DNA from: Melaminivora suipulveris
GTDB taxonomy: Bacteria > Pseudomonadota > Gammaproteobacteria > Burkholderiales > Burkholderiaceae_C
Assembly (NCBI RefSeq): GCF_003008575.1
Contig: NZ_CP027667.1
Coordinates: 2,690,001-2,754,000, forward strand
DNA length: 64,000 bases
Direction of reading: 5' to 3'
How positions within the stretch are numbered: the first letter of the stretch is position 1; every line of letters begins with the position of its first letter. This document shows positions 3,086 to 60,143 of the stretch, piece by piece. Position numbers and translations under genes: made by a program. The notes under the pieces were generated by a model, which saw nothing but the letters and a program-made list of their open reading frames with translations, ran no database searches and was not told the origin of the DNA.

Positions 3086-4447
3086 TTTCGCGGGAGTTGA
3101 CGTGGTGGGCAAAACGGCCTCCACGGTGGTGCCGTGGCCTGGCAGCGAGGTCAGCACGATGCGCCCGCCCTCGGTTTCGACGCGGTGGCGCATGCCCAGC
3201 AGGCCATGCGCGTCGGCGGGCATGCGCGAGGTGTCGAAGCCCCGGCCGTCATCGCGCACCCGCAGCGTCGCCTGTCCTCCCTGGCTGGAGAGGGTGACCA
3301 CCACGTTGTGCGCGCCGGCATGCTTGTGGATGTTGGTCAGCGCCTCCTGCACCAGGCGGTAGACGGTGAGCTGGGCCGATTCGGACAGCCGCACGGGCTC
3401 AAGCCGTGTCTGCACCTCGATGCCGCTGCGTTGCGCGAACTCCGCGGTCAGGATCTCCAGCGCCGTGCCCAGGCCCAGATTGGCCAGGGACGACGGGCGC
3501 AGGTCCTCGATGATGCGGCGCTTGAGCGCGATGACGCTGTTGAGCGCATCGCTGAGATGCTGCAGGCGCTCGGCGCTCTCAGCATTGTCCGGCGCCAGCC
3601 GGCGCTTGAGCCGTGCGACGTCGAGCTTGGCGGCGGTGAGCAGTGCGCCCAGTTCGTCGTGCAGCTCGCGCGCCAGATGGGCGCGCTCTTCCTCGCGCAC
3701 CTGTTGCAGGTGGTGCGCCAGCTCCGACAGGGACGCCGTACGCTCGCGCACCAGCTGCTCCAGCCGGTCGCGCTCGCGCTCCAGCACCAGCTGCTCGCGC
3801 TGGTGCGCTGCCTGCAGCGCACGGTTGCCGCGCAGGAACAGGTAGAAAGCAACCAGGCCCAGCACACCGGCCAGCGCGATGCCGGCGCGCGACCAGGTCA
3901 GCGAGGACTGGATGGCCTCGGTGCGACGGTGAGCCTGCCCGGCGCTGGCGTCGATCATGCGCATCGCCAGTGCGCGGATGGCGTCCATCTCCTGCTGGCC
4001 CACGTCGGTGGACAGGACGAAGCGCCAGGCCTCGTCCTCGTTCTGGCGGCGCAGGCGCACGGTCAGCTCCATCTCCGAGAGCTTGCGGCCGATCAGCTGC
4101 GACAGCTGCTCGAAATCGCCCGCCTCATCCTCGTCGTAGGCGCTGCGCAGGGTCTCCAGGTGGGCGTGGATGGACGAGACCGCCTGCTCGTAAGGGCGCA
4201 GATAGCGCTCGTCGCGCGTCAGCAGATAGCCGCGCTGGCCGGTCTCGGCGTTCAGCATGGACTGCAGCATCTGGTCCAGCGCGGCACGCGTGGCGTGCGA
4301 TCGACCCAACGTCTCCAGCGCGTCCTGAGACTGCCGAAAGCCTGTCTCGTTCACGGCCAGCAGCAGGCCCACGGTCACCAGCGCCAGCAGCGCCAGCAGC
4401 CGCCGCATGCTGGGAAGGCGCAGGCGAGGGGGGCTCATGCGGGGCAT
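3080..4447 (-). CDS. CHASE3 sensor histidine kinase (NarX/DegS type)
   Basis: A 455-residue inner-membrane kinase. Membrane helices lie near residues 15-33 and 187-205, enclosing a periplasmic CHASE3 domain (~38-175; note GQRGYLLTRDERYL). A coiled coil (~209-250) leads to a HisKA_3 dimerisation domain with phospho-accepting His263 in ARELHDELGALL, then a HATPase domain (NIHKHAGA, DDGRGFD, GLLGMRHRVE). Kinases of this class pair with NarL-type regulators, and such a regulator is encoded divergently from 4577, so the two very likely form a pair. The signal is not predictable from CHASE3. The start may be the ATG at 4447 or at 4438; neither has a clearly better ribosome site. Confidence 0.9.
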   Translation of the reverse strand: MPRMSPPRLRLPSMRRLLALLALVTVGLLLAVNETGFRQSQDALETLGRSHATRAALDQMLQSMLNAETGQRGYLLTRDERYLRPYEQAVSSIHAHLETLRSAYDEDEAGDFEQLSQLIGRKLSEMELTVRLRRQNEDEAWRFVLSTDVGQQEMDAIRALAMRMIDASAGQAHRRTEAIQSSLTWSRAGIALAGVLGLVAFYLFLRGNRALQAAHQREQLVLERERDRLEQLVRERTASLSELAHHLQQVREEERAHLARELHDELGALLTAAKLDVARLKRRLAPDNAESAERLQHLSDALNSVIALKRRIIEDLRPSSLANLGLGTALEILTAEFAQRSGIEVQTRLEPVRLSESAQLTVYRLVQEALTNIHKHAGAHNVVVTLSSQGGQATLRVRDDGRGFDTSRMPADAHGLLGMRHRVETEGGRIVLTSLPGHGTTVEAVLPTTSTPAKA

Positions 4448-4576
4448 TCTCCAGATTCTGATGGGGCGGGGCGCGGAAAGTGCATATCATTGACCTGTAC
4501 CGCCCTGAGGCGGTGAGCGCATCGGAAACCATATGTCACGCGGGAAGGGCCTGCGTGCCTCATGAAAGAAGGCTCA

Positions 4577-5209
4577 ATGATCAATATCGGCATTGTGGAC
4601 GACCACGCCATCGTGCGGTCGGGTTTGCGGCAGTTCCTCTCGGAACATGTCGATCTGCGGGTGGTGGGAGAAGCATCCAACGGCCGCGAGGCCATCGATC
4701 TGGTGCGCACGCACGAGATCGACGTGCTGGTCATGGACCTGTCCATGCCCGGCCAGAGCGGGCTCGATGCGCTGGCCATGCTGCGCGCCAAGGCGCCGGA
4801 CATGGGCATCCTGATCCTGTCGGGCTATCCCGAGGAGCACTACGCCATCAGCCTGATCCGCCAGGGCGCCAGCGGCTACCTGAACAAGGAGTGCGAGCCC
4901 AAGGAAATCGTCGAGGCGATTCGCACCATTTCGCTGGGCCGGCGTTATCTGACGCCCGCCGTGGCCGACCTCCTGGCCCAACAGCTCAACCGCAAGGACG
5001 ACGCGCCGCCGCACGAGCAGCTCTCGGAGCGCGAGTTCCAGGTCTTCCTGAAGCTGGCCAAGGGCGAGACCGCCGGCGAGATCGCCAAGGCGCTGTCGCT
5101 GAGCGTCAAGACGGTGAGCACCTACCGCACCCGCCTGATGGAAAAGATGGGCCTGTCGTCCAACAGCGACCTGACCTACTACGCGCTGAAGAACAAGCTG
5201 ATCGATTGA
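4577..5209 (+). CDS. NarL/FixJ-family response regulator
   Basis: A 210-residue cytoplasmic regulator. The receiver domain (1-~120) has acidic DD at residues 8-9, the phospho-acceptor Asp in VLVMDLSMPG, and the conserved Lys in GYLNKECEP. The C terminus (~145-210) is a LuxR-type helix-turn-helix: LSEREFQVF, then GETAGEIAKALSLSVKTVST. I start at MINIGIVDDHA (ATG at 4577) because GAAGG lies four bases before it; an upstream in-frame ATG at 4562 would add five residues. It is divergent from the CHASE3 kinase, its presumed partner. A terminator follows the gene. Targets unknown; the neighbouring stress genes are candidates. Confidence 0.93.
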   Translation: MINIGIVDDHAIVRSGLRQFLSEHVDLRVVGEASNGREAIDLVRTHEIDVLVMDLSMPGQSGLDALAMLRAKAPDMGILILSGYPEEHYAISLIRQGASGYLNKECEPKEIVEAIRTISLGRRYLTPAVADLLAQQLNRKDDAPPHEQLSEREFQVFLKLAKGETAGEIAKALSLSVKTVSTYRTRLMEKMGLSSNSDLTYYALKNKLID

Positions 5210-5230
5210 TCGGGCGTGCGGACGCAGCGA

Positions 5231-5258
5231 AAAGGCCGGCAGGGATGCCGGCTTTTTC
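5231..5258 (+). terminator. Terminator after the NarL-type regulator gene
   Basis: GCCGGC-AGGGAT-GCCGGC (5235-5252) followed by TTTTT, with an A run before the stem. It sits 20 bases after the regulator's stop codon. The A run may let it work for the convergent gene too. Confidence 0.85.
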
Positions 5259-5277
5259 GTTTGCCGTGAACGAAGGC

Positions 5278-5682
5278 TCAGTTGGCCAGGCGGCTGGCCG
5301 CCGGCGCGCGGCCCGCGCTGTGCGCGATGCAGTAGTCCACCAGGGCTTCGATCTCGTTGGATTTGTCGAACACCGCGTCCACGCCCAGTTGCGCGCAGCG
5401 CATGCGCACGTCCGGCGTGGCGTAGTTGCTCAGCACCACCATCTTCTGGTTGGCCAGGCGGTTGCGGCACGCGGCCAGCACGCCCAGGCCGCTGCCCTGG
5501 CGCAGAAAGAGGTCGACGATGGCCAGATCCCATTGCGACGCGTGTTCGGCCAGCCAGGCCTTGCCTTCATCCTCCGTCTCGGCCATGCCTACGGCCTCGA
5601 TGTGCGCCAGCTCCTGCAGCGCGCCGATCAGGTTGTCGCGGATGGTGGCGTTGTCCTCGACGATATAAGTGCGCAATTTCAC
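5278..5682 (-). CDS. Single-domain response regulator (receiver only)
   Basis: A 134-residue protein with a receiver fold and no output domain. Visible are the acidic pocket in YIVEDN, the phospho-acceptor Asp in WDLAIVDLFLRQG and the conserved Lys in AVFDKSNE. Stand-alone receivers act as phosphate shuttles or bind partner proteins. I start at the GTG at 5682 (VKLRTYIVED), since AAGGAAGG is placed correctly before it; an ATG at 5703 would put that site inside the gene. It faces the NarL-type regulator gene tail to tail, so it might belong to the same signalling network, but no kinase is fused or adjacent on its strand. Confidence 0.85.
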   Translation of the reverse strand: MKLRTYIVEDNATIRDNLIGALQELAHIEAVGMAETEDEGKAWLAEHASQWDLAIVDLFLRQGSGLGVLAACRNRLANQKMVVLSNYATPDVRMRCAQLGVDAVFDKSNEIEALVDYCIAHSAGRAPAASRLAN

Positions 5683-52212: not shown

Positions 52213-52261
52213 CGCATCACGCTTGAAGGACGCCGGCTGAGGCCGGTTTTGATGCAAAAAG
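52199..52261 (+). repeat. Dispersed intergenic repeat, copy 8
   Basis: CAAAAACAATAGCGCATCAC, then GCTTGAAGGACGCCGGCTGA and GGCCGGTTTTGATGC. It includes the stop of the preceding small gene and precedes the broken metallo-beta-lactamase-fold gene. Confidence 0.75.
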
Positions 52262-52362
52262 GTCGCGCAGACCCGCCCGCAGCGGCCACGTCGCAACGGG
52301 CACAGCCAGCCCCCATCCCCTGCCGCACAATGCCGCGTCCGCGCCACTGCATCCCCCAAGCC

Positions 52363-53408
52363 ATGCCCGCCAACGCCCCCGAACTGACCTACCCCTTCCA
52401 GCCTCCCGAGGCGCGCCAGAGCCTCGAAGTCGCCCCCGGCGTGCGCTGGATCCGCCTGCCGTTGCCGTTCAGGCTGGACCACATCAACGTCTGGGCCATC
52501 GACGACGGCGACGGCTGGGTGCTGGTGGACACCGGCCTGAACAGCCCGCAGACCGTCGCCGACTGGCTGGCGCTCACGGCCGAGGGGCCGCTGGCGCGCC
52601 CGCTCAAGGGCGTCTATGCCACGCACATGCACCCGGACCACCTGGGCCTGGCCGGCTGGTTCACGCGCCGCGCCGGCGTGCCGCTGTCCATGAGCCGCAT
52701 CGAATACCTGACCTGCCGCGTGCTGCACGCCGACACCAACCGCGAGGCGCCGCCCGACGGCGTGCGCTTCTATCAGCGCGCCGGCTGGCCCGAAGCCGCC
52801 ATCGAAACCTACCGCAGCCGCTTCGGCGGCTTCGGCAAGTTCATCCACGCCCTGCCCGACAGCTTCCGGCGCTGCACGACGGCCAGGAGCTGCGCTGGGG
52901 CGGGCGCGCGTGGCGCGTGATCACCACCGCCGGCCACTCGCCCGAGCACGTCAGCCTGTACTGCGCCGAGCTGCAGGTGCTGATCGCCGGCGACCAGGTG
53001 CTGCCGCGCATCTCGTCCAACGTCTCGGTCCACGCCAACGAGCCGCAGGCCAATCCGCTGCAGGACTGGTTCGACTCGCTGGACAAGATGCAGCGCGAGG
53101 TGCCCGACACGGCCCTGGTGCTGCCGGCGCACAACGAGCCCTTTTACGGCCTGCACGCGCGGCTGGCCCACCTGCGGCGCAGCCAGGAGCGCGCGCTGCA
53201 GCGGCTGCTGGAGCAACTGGCCGAGCGCCCGCTGCGCATCGTGGACAGCTTCGAAGCCTTGTTTGGCCGGCCCATCAGCACAGACGACGCCAGCCAGCTG
53301 GGCCTGGCCACGGGGGAGGCGGTGGCGTGCATGAACTACCTGATGGCGCAGGGGGAGGTGCGGCGGGAGGTGGATGGGGTGGGGGTGGCGTGGTACGCGG
53401 CCGGATAA
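52363..53408 (+). pseudogene. Metallo-beta-lactamase-fold hydrolase, frameshifted
   Basis: The gene starts at the ATG at 52363 and reads well through THMHPDHLGLAGW, the zinc-binding HxHxDH motif, to ALPDSFRR. Near 52869-52872 one base is missing, so the first frame ends at 52920 after a nonsense tail. The other frame continues seamlessly (LHDGQELRWGGRAWRVITT, then AGHSPEHVSLYC with the next zinc His) to 53408. Restoring one base would give a 348-residue protein of the glyoxalase II-like family, with a C-terminal winged-helix-like extension (PLRIVDSFEALFG). Either a recent pseudogene or a sequencing error; the rest is intact. Confidence 0.85.
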
Positions 53409-53623
53409 TGGGCTGGCGACGCCTGGCGCTTGAGGGCCGCGGCCTTTTTTCTCAGCGAGGCTGCGGAACTCGCATGACCTTCACCGAAAGAATCCAAAAC
53501 CACCGGAGAGCGGCGCAGGTCTGATCAAGGCGATGGCTTTCCCATTTCTGGTTATGTTTCCAGGCTGAGCGAACCCATCGCCTCCTTCCCGTGCTAACCC
53601 GGCTTTGACGTGAGAGGAGAAAC

Positions 53624-53914
53624 ATGAAGCCCTCTGAAGCCCTGGCCTCCAACCGCGCCGCGATCCGGCGGATCGTGGAAGCCTACCGCGCACGCAACGC
53701 TCGGGTTTTCGGCTCCGTGCTACGCGGCCAGGACACCGACAGCAGCGATCTGGACATCCTCATCGACCCGACGCCTGAAACGACGCTGATGGACGTAGCC
53801 GCGATTCAAGTGGAGCTGCAACGCCTGCTGGGGGTGTCGGTCGACGTGCTGACGCCCAAGTCTTTGCCCGACGCTTTCCGCAGCCGGGTTCTCGCCGAGG
53901 CGGTGCCGGTGTGA
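53624..53914 (+). CDS. mntA: MNT-domain nucleotidyltransferase antitoxin (MntA)
   Basis: A 96-residue minimal nucleotidyltransferase. The signature GSx10DxD is G30-S31 with D42 and D44 (FGSVLRG then SSDLDILIDP). MntA proteins silence the HepT toxin by transferring AMP to a Tyr near the toxin active site. The ATG follows AGAGGAGAAAC. The stop overlaps the GTG start of hepT (GTGTGA), giving fixed stoichiometry. The pair is followed by an attC-like integron site. A likely stand-alone toxin-antitoxin or phage-defence module. Confidence 0.9.
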   Translation: MKPSEALASNRAAIRRIVEAYRARNARVFGSVLRGQDTDSSDLDILIDPTPETTLMDVAAIQVELQRLLGVSVDVLTPKSLPDAFRSRVLAEAVPV

Positions 53915-54267
53915 GCAAGGCGCTGCGAGTGACCGATTACTTGGGTCACATGCTTGAGGCCATGGAGCGAATCGACCGCTATACGGCGGATATGGACGAG
54001 GCGGCGTTCCTGGAGAGCGAGTTGGTGCAAGACGCCGTGATTCGCAACATCGAGGTCATCGGCGAAGCGTCGAACAATATCCTGCGCACTGATCCAGCAT
54101 TCGCCGCGCAACACGAGGACGTTCCTTGGCTGGTCATGTACACCATGCGCAATCGCGTCGCGCATGGCTATGACAAGGTGGATCTGGAAATTGTCTGGAG
54201 AACGATTGCGAGGGACTTGCCGGGACTGTACCGGCAGGTGCGGGCCCTGCTCGGCGCATCGACTTGA
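53911..54267 (+). CDS. hepT: HepT-like RNase toxin (DUF86)
   Basis: A 118-residue helical HEPN ribonuclease. The catalytic RX4HXY motif is R80-NRVAG region: R80, H85 and Tyr87 in MRNRVAHGYDKVD, where the Tyr is the residue AMPylated by MntA. The GTG start overlaps mntA. HepT cleaves tRNA or other RNA when free of antitoxin. Complete, with all key residues, so probably active. An attC-like site starts eight bases past the stop, so the pair may have arrived as an integron cassette. Confidence 0.9.
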   Translation: MSKALRVTDYLGHMLEAMERIDRYTADMDEAAFLESELVQDAVIRNIEVIGEASNNILRTDPAFAAQHEDVPWLVMYTMRNRVAHGYDKVDLEIVWRTIARDLPGLYRQVRALLGAST

Positions 54268-54274
54268 TCCTGGC

Positions 54275-54345
54275 CTCTAACGCCTGAGGTAAGCCGACGC
54301 GAACCCGCGCAGCGGCTTGCGGTCGGCTTGACCGAAATGTTAGAC
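54275..54345 (+). other. attC-like integron recombination site
   Basis: About 71 bases between CTCTAAC (54275-54281) and GTTAGAC (54339-54345), the latter matching the core GTTRRRY. Inside, GGTAAGCCGAC (54288-54298) pairs with GTCGGCTTGACC, except for one unpaired base, the extrahelical position attC sites need for recognition by the integrase. The central segment is variable, as in real sites. It directly follows the MntA/HepT genes. No integrase gene is in the window. Confidence 0.65.
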
Positions 54346-54379
54346 CCGAAGGCCAAAAGGAAGCGCTGTAGCAGAAAAC

Positions 54380-54610
54380 TCACAGCCCGTGTTCTTTGAA
54401 TATGGCTTTGAGCTGTTGAACGGCCTCCGGGGTAAGCCGAATGCTTTGACTTTTCTTGCCTCGAAATTCACGAGAGGCTGAACCGTAGGTATCCAGTTGA
54501 AGGCATTTGCGACCGTCAGAGCCTGTAACAACGGCAAATGTGCAAGCAGCTTCGGTGTGCTTCGACTCCCGCTCGAGTGCCTGATATTCGATGTTATTCA
54601 CTATAGCCAC
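54380..54610 (-). CDS. Small protein of unknown function
   Basis: A 76-residue soluble protein I do not recognise: it starts MAIVNNIEYQALE and contains CTFAVVTGSDGRKCLQLDTY and SQSIRLTPEAVQQLKAIF. The start is a GTG at 54610 with GGGAGAACTCC upstream. Base composition is more AT-rich than the surroundings, and it lies just past the attC-like site in the reverse direction, so it is likely of foreign origin or a reversed cassette gene. Helix at the C terminus. Function unknown. Confidence 0.6.
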   Translation of the reverse strand: MAIVNNIEYQALERESKHTEAACTFAVVTGSDGRKCLQLDTYGSASREFRGKKSQSIRLTPEAVQQLKAIFKEHGL

Positions 54611-54948
54611 GGAGTTCTCCCAATGAACGGACTAACTACGTTTAGATGACTGCGAGAGCAGCACGGCGAGGTCGGCTAACACAACCTTGTCCGCCTTCTG
54701 CCGCCTGCGATCTGCTCTCCAGGAAGATTTAGGCAAACCTAAATTTTTCCGGATGAGGTGCCTACCATCCACCACGCTCGCATATGCCCCCGTCTCGCGC
54801 ACCGCAAACGTCTTGATGACCGGCACCAAACGATTAGTTGCGTTTTGTATCACACCCCCGTCTTCGGTCTCTCAGGGTTTGTAGCGTTCCGGCGTCGCCC
54901 GTTGACCGAGCGCAGAAGCCCCTCCGCTGGGCGGCACGCATAGCCCGT
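54611..54948. other. AT-richer gap of 338 bases without a confident gene
   Basis: Composition differs from neighbouring DNA (many A/T runs, e.g. AGATTTAGGCAAACCTAAAT near 54724-54743, which holds the short palindrome TTTAGG-CAAA-CCTAAA). One minus-strand frame, 54632-54853 (GTG start, 73 residues, basic), is possible but has a weak ribosome site and no recognisable features. I see no RNA gene and no second attC site. Probably decayed accessory DNA. Confidence 0.5.
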
Positions 54949-55668
54949 CTATGGCGACGAAACATCTCTACCCGGCGGCGTCTCAATTTCCTGCCGCGCC
55001 CGGCTCGCTCCCAGGCCCATGGCGCCGCCCGTCGCGATGCCGCCACCACCCATACCTCCACCGCCCCCGCCGCCCTTCCCGCCAGGGCCACCGCTTCCCC
55101 CGCGCCCGCCGCTCCCACCAGTGCGCAGCGGCCCCTGCGGCGGCACGGTCAGGTGGGCCGGAACAGGCTCCAGCTCCAGCACTTCGCGGATGAAGTTGCG
55201 CAGCGAGACCACCAGCGCCGCAGTTTCGACACGGCGCCCGGCCACCATGTCGCCCGCCGCCTGCACCGCCAGCGCGACCTGCTCGGCCGTGCCCAGCAGG
55301 ATCACGTCGGAGAGCGCGGCCTGCACGGCGTCGCGCGTGCGGCGGCGGCGCTCGGATGTGGGCTGGGCGGTGTCGCCGGCTTCTCCTGCCTCCTGCCCGG
55401 ATTCGGTGGTGGCCTGCAGGGCGCGCAATTTGCGCATGTGCCAGGGGTCGACCGAAAGATCACCGGTGAACGAGCCGCCCAGCGTCTTGTAGGCGGCGAT
55501 CAGGGTTTTCAGGCGCTCGTTGATCTGGCGGTTCTGCCGCTCGCGGCGTTGCTGCACGCGCTGCATGACCAGCAGTCGCACGCCCACTGCCACCAGGGTG
55601 AACAGCACCAGACCGAACAGCGTGGTCAGCAGGCCTTGCCAGGAGCTGAAGTCGAGGATGTTGCGCAT
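54949..55668 (-). CDS. Membrane protein with Gly-rich tail, unknown function
   Basis: A 239-residue protein. One membrane helix (residues ~10-35, GLLTTLFGLVLFTLVAVGV) is followed by a basic coiled stretch (QRVQQRRERQNRQINERLKT) and a helical cytosolic domain with SDVILLGTAEQVALAVQAAG. The last ~60 residues are Gly-rich (GGSGGRGGSGG, then GGGGGGGMGGGG), low complexity and probably disordered. No domain is recognised. It begins 58 bases after the P450 stop on the same strand, so co-transcription is possible. It ends at the edge of the AT-richer accessory segment, and the Gly-rich tail might be affected by repeat slippage. Confidence 0.75.
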   Translation of the reverse strand: MRNILDFSSWQGLLTTLFGLVLFTLVAVGVRLLVMQRVQQRRERQNRQINERLKTLIAAYKTLGGSFTGDLSVDPWHMRKLRALQATTESGQEAGEAGDTAQPTSERRRRTRDAVQAALSDVILLGTAEQVALAVQAAGDMVAGRRVETAALVVSLRNFIREVLELEPVPAHLTVPPQGPLRTGGSGGRGGSGGPGGKGGGGGGGMGGGGIATGGAMGLGASRARQEIETPPGRDVSSP

Positions 55669-55725
55669 GTCCTCGACCGTAGTGGGGAGCGGGGAGCGCA
55701 GCGGTCGGACGATGCCGCCGCGCGG

Positions 55726-60004: not shown

Positions 60005-60044
60005 GGCGTCTCCTGTGCGGGCGGGGTGCTCCCGGATCAAGGGG

Positions 60045-60136
60045 CGGAAAGGAGAAGGAGTCGAACCTTCCGACCGCGCGTGGCGCAATCCGCCGGGTTT
60101 GAAGCCCGGGCGCCCCACCAGGGACGCTTCCCTTCC
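60045..60136 (-). tRNA. selC: Selenocysteine tRNA (UCA anticodon)
   Basis: 92 bases without encoded CCA. An 8-bp acceptor stem (GGAAGGGA with TCCTTTCC, one G-U), a 6-bp D stem (CGTCCC-TGGT-GGGGCG), anticodon arm CCGGG-CTTCAAA-CCCGG with anticodon TCA, a long variable arm, and T arm GAAGG-TTCGACT-CCTTC are visible. The 8-bp acceptor and extended D stem are diagnostic of tRNA-Sec. It lies seven bases after the selB stop, completing the selenocysteine machinery. Confidence 0.96.
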
Positions 60137-60143
60137 AAAAAAT

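Follow-up and report, generated by a model that had tools for sequence, protein, structure and literature searches.

The DNA analysed here, a window of 64 kb (G000:C1:2690001-2754000, from a genome of 3.75 Mb), very probably holds the worn stump of a chromosomal integron. The integrase gene of this integron, intI, would have been lost before the lineage split from that of a genome of the same genus, called G004 here, and one attC recombination site is left. As read from the letters, the locus is an attI-attC platform without an integrase, with one cassette remaining. Beside it stands a toxin-antitoxin (TA) pair, mntA-hepT, which the original prediction described as ending in the attC. That description is recast here: the integron is eroded, and the pair is its back-to-front neighbour.

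The locus is an ordinary integron stump with a TA neighbour, if a well-documented one. Its value lies in what it says about method. A single attC can be placed correctly by using its orientation, the remnants of attI and of the intI promoter, and one related genome.

Read along the plus strand, the proposed order would run from a left-flank gene through a spacer, mntA-hepT, the attC, a first cassette, an attI-like core, and a palindrome with a start remnant, to a right-flank gene. The features are these:

52249..53408, plus strand: hydrolase-like gene of the left flank, with synteny in G004 and in G001 (same genus)
53403..53623, no strand: spacer from the left-flank gene to mntA, with no attC and few matches
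53624..53914, plus strand: mntA, putative antitoxin-like adenylyltransferase of 96 aa (ORF, family matches; GSx10DxD intact)
53911..54267, plus strand: hepT, putative HEPN ribonuclease toxin of 118 aa (GTG start; RX4HXY intact)
54275..54345, minus strand (canonical top strand): attC, from covariance model, box layout and fold
54281..54635, minus strand: cassette 1, 355 bp, bounded by the G/TTAGTC junction on the attI side and by the cleavage point of the attC
54380..54610, minus strand: ORF of cassette 1, 76 aa, GTG start
54630..54647, minus strand: attI-like core, GACTAACTACGTTTAGAT on the plus strand, which lines up with GCTAACTAGAATTAGAC of the genus integrons
54728..54743, no strand: palindrome TTTAGGCAAACCTAAA, seen in several genus integrons 9 bp ahead of what is presumed to be the start codon of intI
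54744..54765, plus strand: intI start remnant TTTTTCCGGATGAGGTGCCTAC, with its ATG at 54753, from comparison with the genus integrons
54949..55668, minus strand: right flank, hypothetical gene, with similar DNA in G004 and partly in G003 (same genus)

A genuine attC site

The attC begins 7 nt past the hepT stop. Its R'' box (GTCTAAC) lies at 54345-54339 and its R' box (GTTAGAG) at 54281-54275, with the expected cleavage point between 54281 and 54280. The hallmarks that had been claimed for the DNA after hepT are present. One R heptamer ends in AAC and the other starts with GTT, and the two pair at six of seven positions; the L'' and L' boxes form 8 of 8 pairs around a single extra base bulged from L'', with spacers of 5 and 6.

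A script that looks for paired R boxes together with paired L boxes containing one bulge picks up the site. The covariance-model check that the original prediction proposed was run with a model built from 28 aligned attCs of this genome and of G001, G003 and G004, with the window attC left out. The model matches 54275-54345 on the plus strand at 58.2 bits (E=2.9e-13). At E<=10, the only other match anywhere in the 64 kb is to the same element on the opposite strand, at 17.1 bits. A scan of the whole genome, in which 150 of 5671 first-look candidates were scored, gives the window attC E=1.7e-11 and makes it one of seven matches, the other six of which lie beside intI genes. In dinucleotide shuffles of the window, a strict form of the attC motif occurs 0 times in 100 shuffles, and a loose form has 261 matches across 100.

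Folding was also proposed as a check, and here the outcome is mixed. As single-stranded DNA, the plus strand, which is the one expected to recombine, folds at -17.4 kcal/mol (z -2.96), a value matched by 2 of 200 shuffles. For the minus strand, the figures are -19.6 kcal/mol and z -4.30, matched by 0 of 200. The minus strand thus folds better than the plus, and on folding energy alone the plus strand has no advantage.

A lone site in a window without an integrase might suggest a chance hairpin or an unrelated inverted repeat, but that reading is scarcely credible, since the model scores (in the window and genome-wide), the shuffles and the fold are all contrary to it, remnants of attI and of an intI start adjoin the site, and an array occupies the same locus in G004. 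The element at 54275-54345 is, on its sequence, a genuine attC and a predicted recombination site.

Orientation of the attC and the cassette that it closes

Sites of this type are asymmetric. The L'' box carries the extra base, and it is the bottom strand that recombines (PMC2727003). Taking the minus strand as top strand puts the extra base of the present site in L''. This unpaired base, together with the 58.2 against 17.1 bits on the two strands, means that the attC reads on the minus strand.

Orientation also has a consequence for where the integrase stood. At 19 intI loci outside the model, 15 of which gave matches, all 28 matches share the strand of intI and lie upstream of it. The same holds for 219 of 220 matches in 34 stretches taken from the DNA upstream of intI genes, 30 of which gave matches, a count that was read from a list and in which several stretches overlap the 19 loci and one (L200) holds one training site. 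By this rule, the intI side of the platform lies to the right of 54345. The sole exception to the rule, at L196 2727-2822, is the lone match of the 220 that lies opposite its intI strand; a 75-bp part of it is 91% identical to the G004 array (L077 5984-6058).

The extra base in L'' (on the minus reading) and the strand-specific score make the attC the 3' end of a cassette on its right, and not of the TA pair. The original prediction, that the pair ends in the attC, does not survive this. The site is oriented for the other side, so that 54275-54345 does not close mntA-hepT in the orientation of the array, and none was found left of mntA. The attC as the end of an mntA-hepT cassette is therefore ruled out by orientation.

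What lies to the right does look like a gene cassette. At 54281-54635, a G/TT boundary, an ORF and its own attC in the same orientation can be recognized, with the boundaries of the cassette taken from the G/TT cores. Cassette 1 would read on the minus strand and away from attI, the usual direction for a cassette, with the attC as its 3' end. The 76-aa ORF has no match in Pfam, NCBIfam or PADLOC, and its own copy is its sole match in 199 genomes.

Remnants of attI and of the missing integrase

The attI-like core of the window differs from the genus core at several positions. Beyond it stands a perfect palindrome of 16 bp (TTTAGG-CAAA-CCTAAA), directly followed in the window by CCGGATGAGG. In two integron loci, L023 and L083, the palindrome is followed at a distance of 9 bp by an ATG in frame with intI. 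It also precedes intI in L080, in L082, and in L180 from another genus, and variants of it occur in L025/L026 and L009 (positions are L023 19312, L082 11509, L083 7490, L080 10351 on the minus strand, L026 774 on the minus strand, and L180 19503). It occurs 0 times in 1.52 Mb of control DNA made up of TA-family loci, with both strands counted. Among the integron loci, the class 1-type locus and L081 of the same genus lack it, as do most of the intI loci scanned in other genera. The palindrome is possibly an operator or promoter element of intI. LexA boxes have the form CTGT-N8-ACAG, which the palindrome does not have.

Nothing resembling intI follows the start remnant; the integrase is gone directly past its start. 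The claim that the window lacks an integrase stands, as no IntI match, whole or fragmentary, is better than E=0.5 there.

Integrases are found elsewhere in the genome. Among the matches listed are an uninterrupted IntI of the genus type at 1272396-1273361, a class 1-type IntI at 3572570-3573514, and a partial IntI at 113948-114691. The class 1-type intI has next to it a pair of near-identical attCs, spaced 639 bp apart (G000:C1:3571105-3571815; L021 18106-18816), in what looks like a duplicated cassette.

The same locus in related genomes

In G004, the sequences that flank the locus in the window, 52388-53402 (90%) and 54668-55682 (83%), are split by about 5.1 kb. This stretch contains six attC matches at E<=4.5e-7, all in the orientation of the window attC; five of the six are training sites of the model, and the sixth (36.8 bits) is not. 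By eye, one further attC-like pair can be seen in the array, and both the attI core and the palindrome are present. There is no intI at this locus: in L077, the G004 stretch, nothing matches IntI at better than E=0.05.

Because the right-hand segment is common to the window and G004, the loss of intI predates the split of the two lineages. Thereafter, G004 would have retained an array of several cassettes, and erosion in the window lineage would have reduced the array to one. No cassette is common to the two, so no cassette proves descent.

Two other genomes of the genus preserve parts of the setting. In G001, the left-flank gene lies about 190 bp from the next ORF, which from its sequence we take to be selB, and no array stands between them. 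In G003, only part of the right flank is present. With one flank each, these genomes offer no clean empty site that has both. G004 and G001 each have the left-flank gene as a single frame; in the window it is split into two overlapping frames, and thus looks frameshifted here.

With no intI in the window, the attC is presumably immobile from here; the intact IntI at 1.27 Mb, acting in trans, might move it. The improbable extension of this thought is a live platform that needs no integrase of its own, its attI and attC being served in trans by the IntI at 1.27 Mb, and mntA-hepT being inverted cargo that protects the stump. Such a platform is compatible with the fact that the cassettes of the window and of G004 are wholly different after a common loss of intI. 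Against it, the G004 array has no near-identical cassette in common with the other fetched arrays. The best long stretch is 91% over 136 bp, and only pieces of attC length (35-57 bp) reach 94-97%. Recent exchange of cassettes between the G004 array and the others was considered and rejected, the 136 bp belonging mostly to a repeated cassette family of about 320 bp.

Members of that family recur across arrays at about 66-88% identity (L077 2972-3300, 4345-4668 and 6381-6704; L084 3521-3859; several places in L082). In L077, their ORFs run through the attC to give products with ...SNISVKPTR..., which are probably spurious proteins. Also in L084, at 3801-5614 (G004:C2:1321800-1323613), four consecutive attC matches have no intI nearby among the matches listed, and are perhaps a separate CALIN (cluster of attC sites lacking an integron integrase).

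A probable eroded chromosomal integron

The worn stump of a chromosomal integron remains the best explanation of the locus. The original prediction spoke of a single leftover cassette, a CALIN. The window does contain a leftover piece of an integron, an attC without intI nearby, but its cassette is the 76-aa ORF on the right and not the TA pair. Neither the remnants of attI and of the intI start nor the array in G004 figured in that prediction. CALINs are attCs without an adjoining intI, with loss of intI named as one route to them (PMC8618304). The stump differs in that it has one attC only and in that the attI core and the intI promoter/start remnant persist. Because these are still present, an origin by loss of intI can be read directly. 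By default, IntegronFinder requires two attCs to call a CALIN (PMC12444791); the window has one and its G004 counterpart six. CALIN calling at this threshold would miss the window locus.

The nearest parallel is in Xanthomonas, whose chromosomal integrons are described in the same source as decayed, with most intI genes inactivated or deleted (PMC12444791). There as here, the integrase is lost and the arrays differ between lineages at one locus. The bacterial group and the locus are different, however, and the window is truncated directly after the intI start.

Some observations do count against a stump. There is only one attC; the 76-aa ORF has no relative; the attI core deviates from that of the genus; the palindrome is not found at every intI locus; and it is the minus strand of the attC that folds better.

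The toxin-antitoxin pair

The pair itself is what it had been said to be, a complete MntA/HepT pair with intact motifs and an overlapping start and stop. Both ORFs are open, and the hepT start overlaps the mntA stop by 4 nt. MntA matches PF01909/PF18765 and HepT matches PF01934 above the curated Pfam cut-offs. The GSx10DxD motif (G30 S31 ... D42 x D44) is invariant in all 11 rows of the MntA alignment, and RX4HXY (R80, H85, Y87) is kept in all 14 rows of the HepT alignment. By neighbouring PF01909 and PF01934 genes that carry these motifs, the pair would belong to type VII; the NCBIfam models MntA_antitoxin and HepT_toxin score it at 38 and 43.6 bits, both below the equivalog cut-off of 60 bits. 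MntA matches PDC-S09 of PADLOC, and a PADLOC search with HepT gave no match.

HepT cuts RNA, and MntA silences it by placing AMPs on the tyrosine of its motif, as PMC7641770 describes. In the window, HepT would likewise be an RNase, kept silent by the AMP that MntA puts on the RX4HXY tyrosine, with toxin and antitoxin action predicted from the motifs. Most likely, mntA-hepT works as an ordinary type VII TA module, independent of the integron. It resembles the SO_3165/SO_3166 pair of Shewanella oneidensis, as presented in the same source (PMC7641770), in its PF01909/PF01934 composition, in both motifs and in having mntA upstream of hepT. It differs in scoring below the NCBIfam equivalog cut-offs and in adjoining an attC.

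How the pair came to lie beside the attC

The pair runs antiparallel to the array and would fill the next slot after cassette 1; 13 nt separate its stop from the point where the attC is expected to be cleaved. Two routes to this arrangement are close to even.

By the first, whose chances are only just short of even, mntA-hepT is an ordinary chromosomal TA pair that an unrelated insertion or deletion joined to the stump. Here, the close spacing is either chance, or reflects the survival of those junctions that spare the TA pair. In Pseudomonas aeruginosa, HEPN/MNT pairs are listed that have outlasted the partial loss of their genomic island (PMC5481352).

This route fits the wider distribution of the family, in which the scanned relatives have no attCs nearby. 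Around the best 80 of at least 574 HepT stretches (760 kb, flanks up to 6 kb), none has an attC at E<=0.1; these come from one-genome-per-species contigs, and both 6-kb flanks are complete for 33 of them. Nor is there a significant attC at any of 29 loci of relatives, each scanned with at most 1.5 kb of flanking DNA, where one match reaches E=0.81; these loci, from genomes of the same genus, family or order, were drawn outside the window from HepT matches in 66 of 199 genomes. HepT relatives also occur in 1487 plasmid records and at two viral-contig loci, outside these scans. As the model comes from this and three other genomes of the genus and found attCs at 15 of 19 other-genus intI loci, it could overlook strongly divergent attCs beside distant relatives of the TA pair. 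From the other direction, 65 integron-associated loci (927.7 kb with the window; partly overlapping, and including intI-downstream stretches) contain no HepT besides that of the window at E<=0.01. A single gene, which is present in both L080 and L200, matches the MntA profile at 18 bits, with no HepT match there.

Thus, the TA family is not a usual cassette, and the idea that MntA/HepT is a regular cargo of this or related integrons was dropped after these 80, 29 and 65 loci. The search for the same pair next to an attC in relatives, which had been suggested as a check, came back negative. The accompanying remark, that MntA/HepT is not commonly described as a cassette, agrees both with these counts and with the literature: no report of it as an integron cassette was found in the open-licence literature, within the parts of articles available. 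In the portions accessible of PMC8230891, PMC7157771 and PMC5481352, integrons and HEPN/MNT or HepT/MntA are mentioned separately, and not as cassettes.

An unrelated join also agrees with the left side of the pair, where no trace of an attC is seen. With filters off, the best score in the spacer is 4.8 bits (E=2.3). In 148 other genomes, the spacer has only matches of 25 and 31 bp, in 2 of them, and its final ~30 bp look like the leader that precedes some other mntA genes. A CTAAC...TTTGACGTGAG stretch before mntA was considered as an attC remnant and rejected, given its 4.8 bits and the mntA-type leader of the last ~30 bp. What tells against an unrelated join is geometry: with just 7 nt between the attC end and hepT, both of them undamaged, a random junction would have had a small target.

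By the second route, which falls somewhat short of an even chance, mntA-hepT is a true cassette, inserted in inverted orientation in the second slot. Its own attC, left of mntA, would have been deleted later, and the TA pair would have stabilised the stump. The position of the pair suits this well, since it sits in a cassette slot, its stop a mere 13 nt away from the predicted cut in the attC, and G004 has other cassettes in the same slot. So does its composition, with a GC of 0.62, while the flanks have 0.71. TA pairs rank among the functions often reported for cassettes (PMC8618304), and the V. cholerae integron is credited with 19 TA cassettes that have their own promoters (PMC11023631). 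HEPN-domain cassettes, too, are in print (PMC3710099). These last tie a HEPN fold to integrons as well, but the family of PDB 3jrt is listed there as its own, whereas the HEPN protein of the window is of the HepT/MNT kind and its cassette status is putative. Weighing against an inverted cassette are the 4.8 bits (E=2.3) left of mntA, the scans of 80, 29 and 65 loci given above, and an mntA leader that resembles that of relatives away from attCs.

Genomic setting

The stump with its back-to-front TA neighbour lies where base composition changes. The observation that the DNA beyond the site is richer in AT is borne out, as GC drops from about 0.72 to 0.53-0.57. A scan for promoters over 53350-54800 found none.

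The genus has full and truncated copies of intI, and it has an attI locus without an integrase. This combination is suited to testing whether such a locus can be refilled in trans.

A search of the whole window with Rfam at gathering thresholds returned tRNA-Sec only. The tRNA-Sec gene lies at 60043-60137, about 5 kb from the integron stump.
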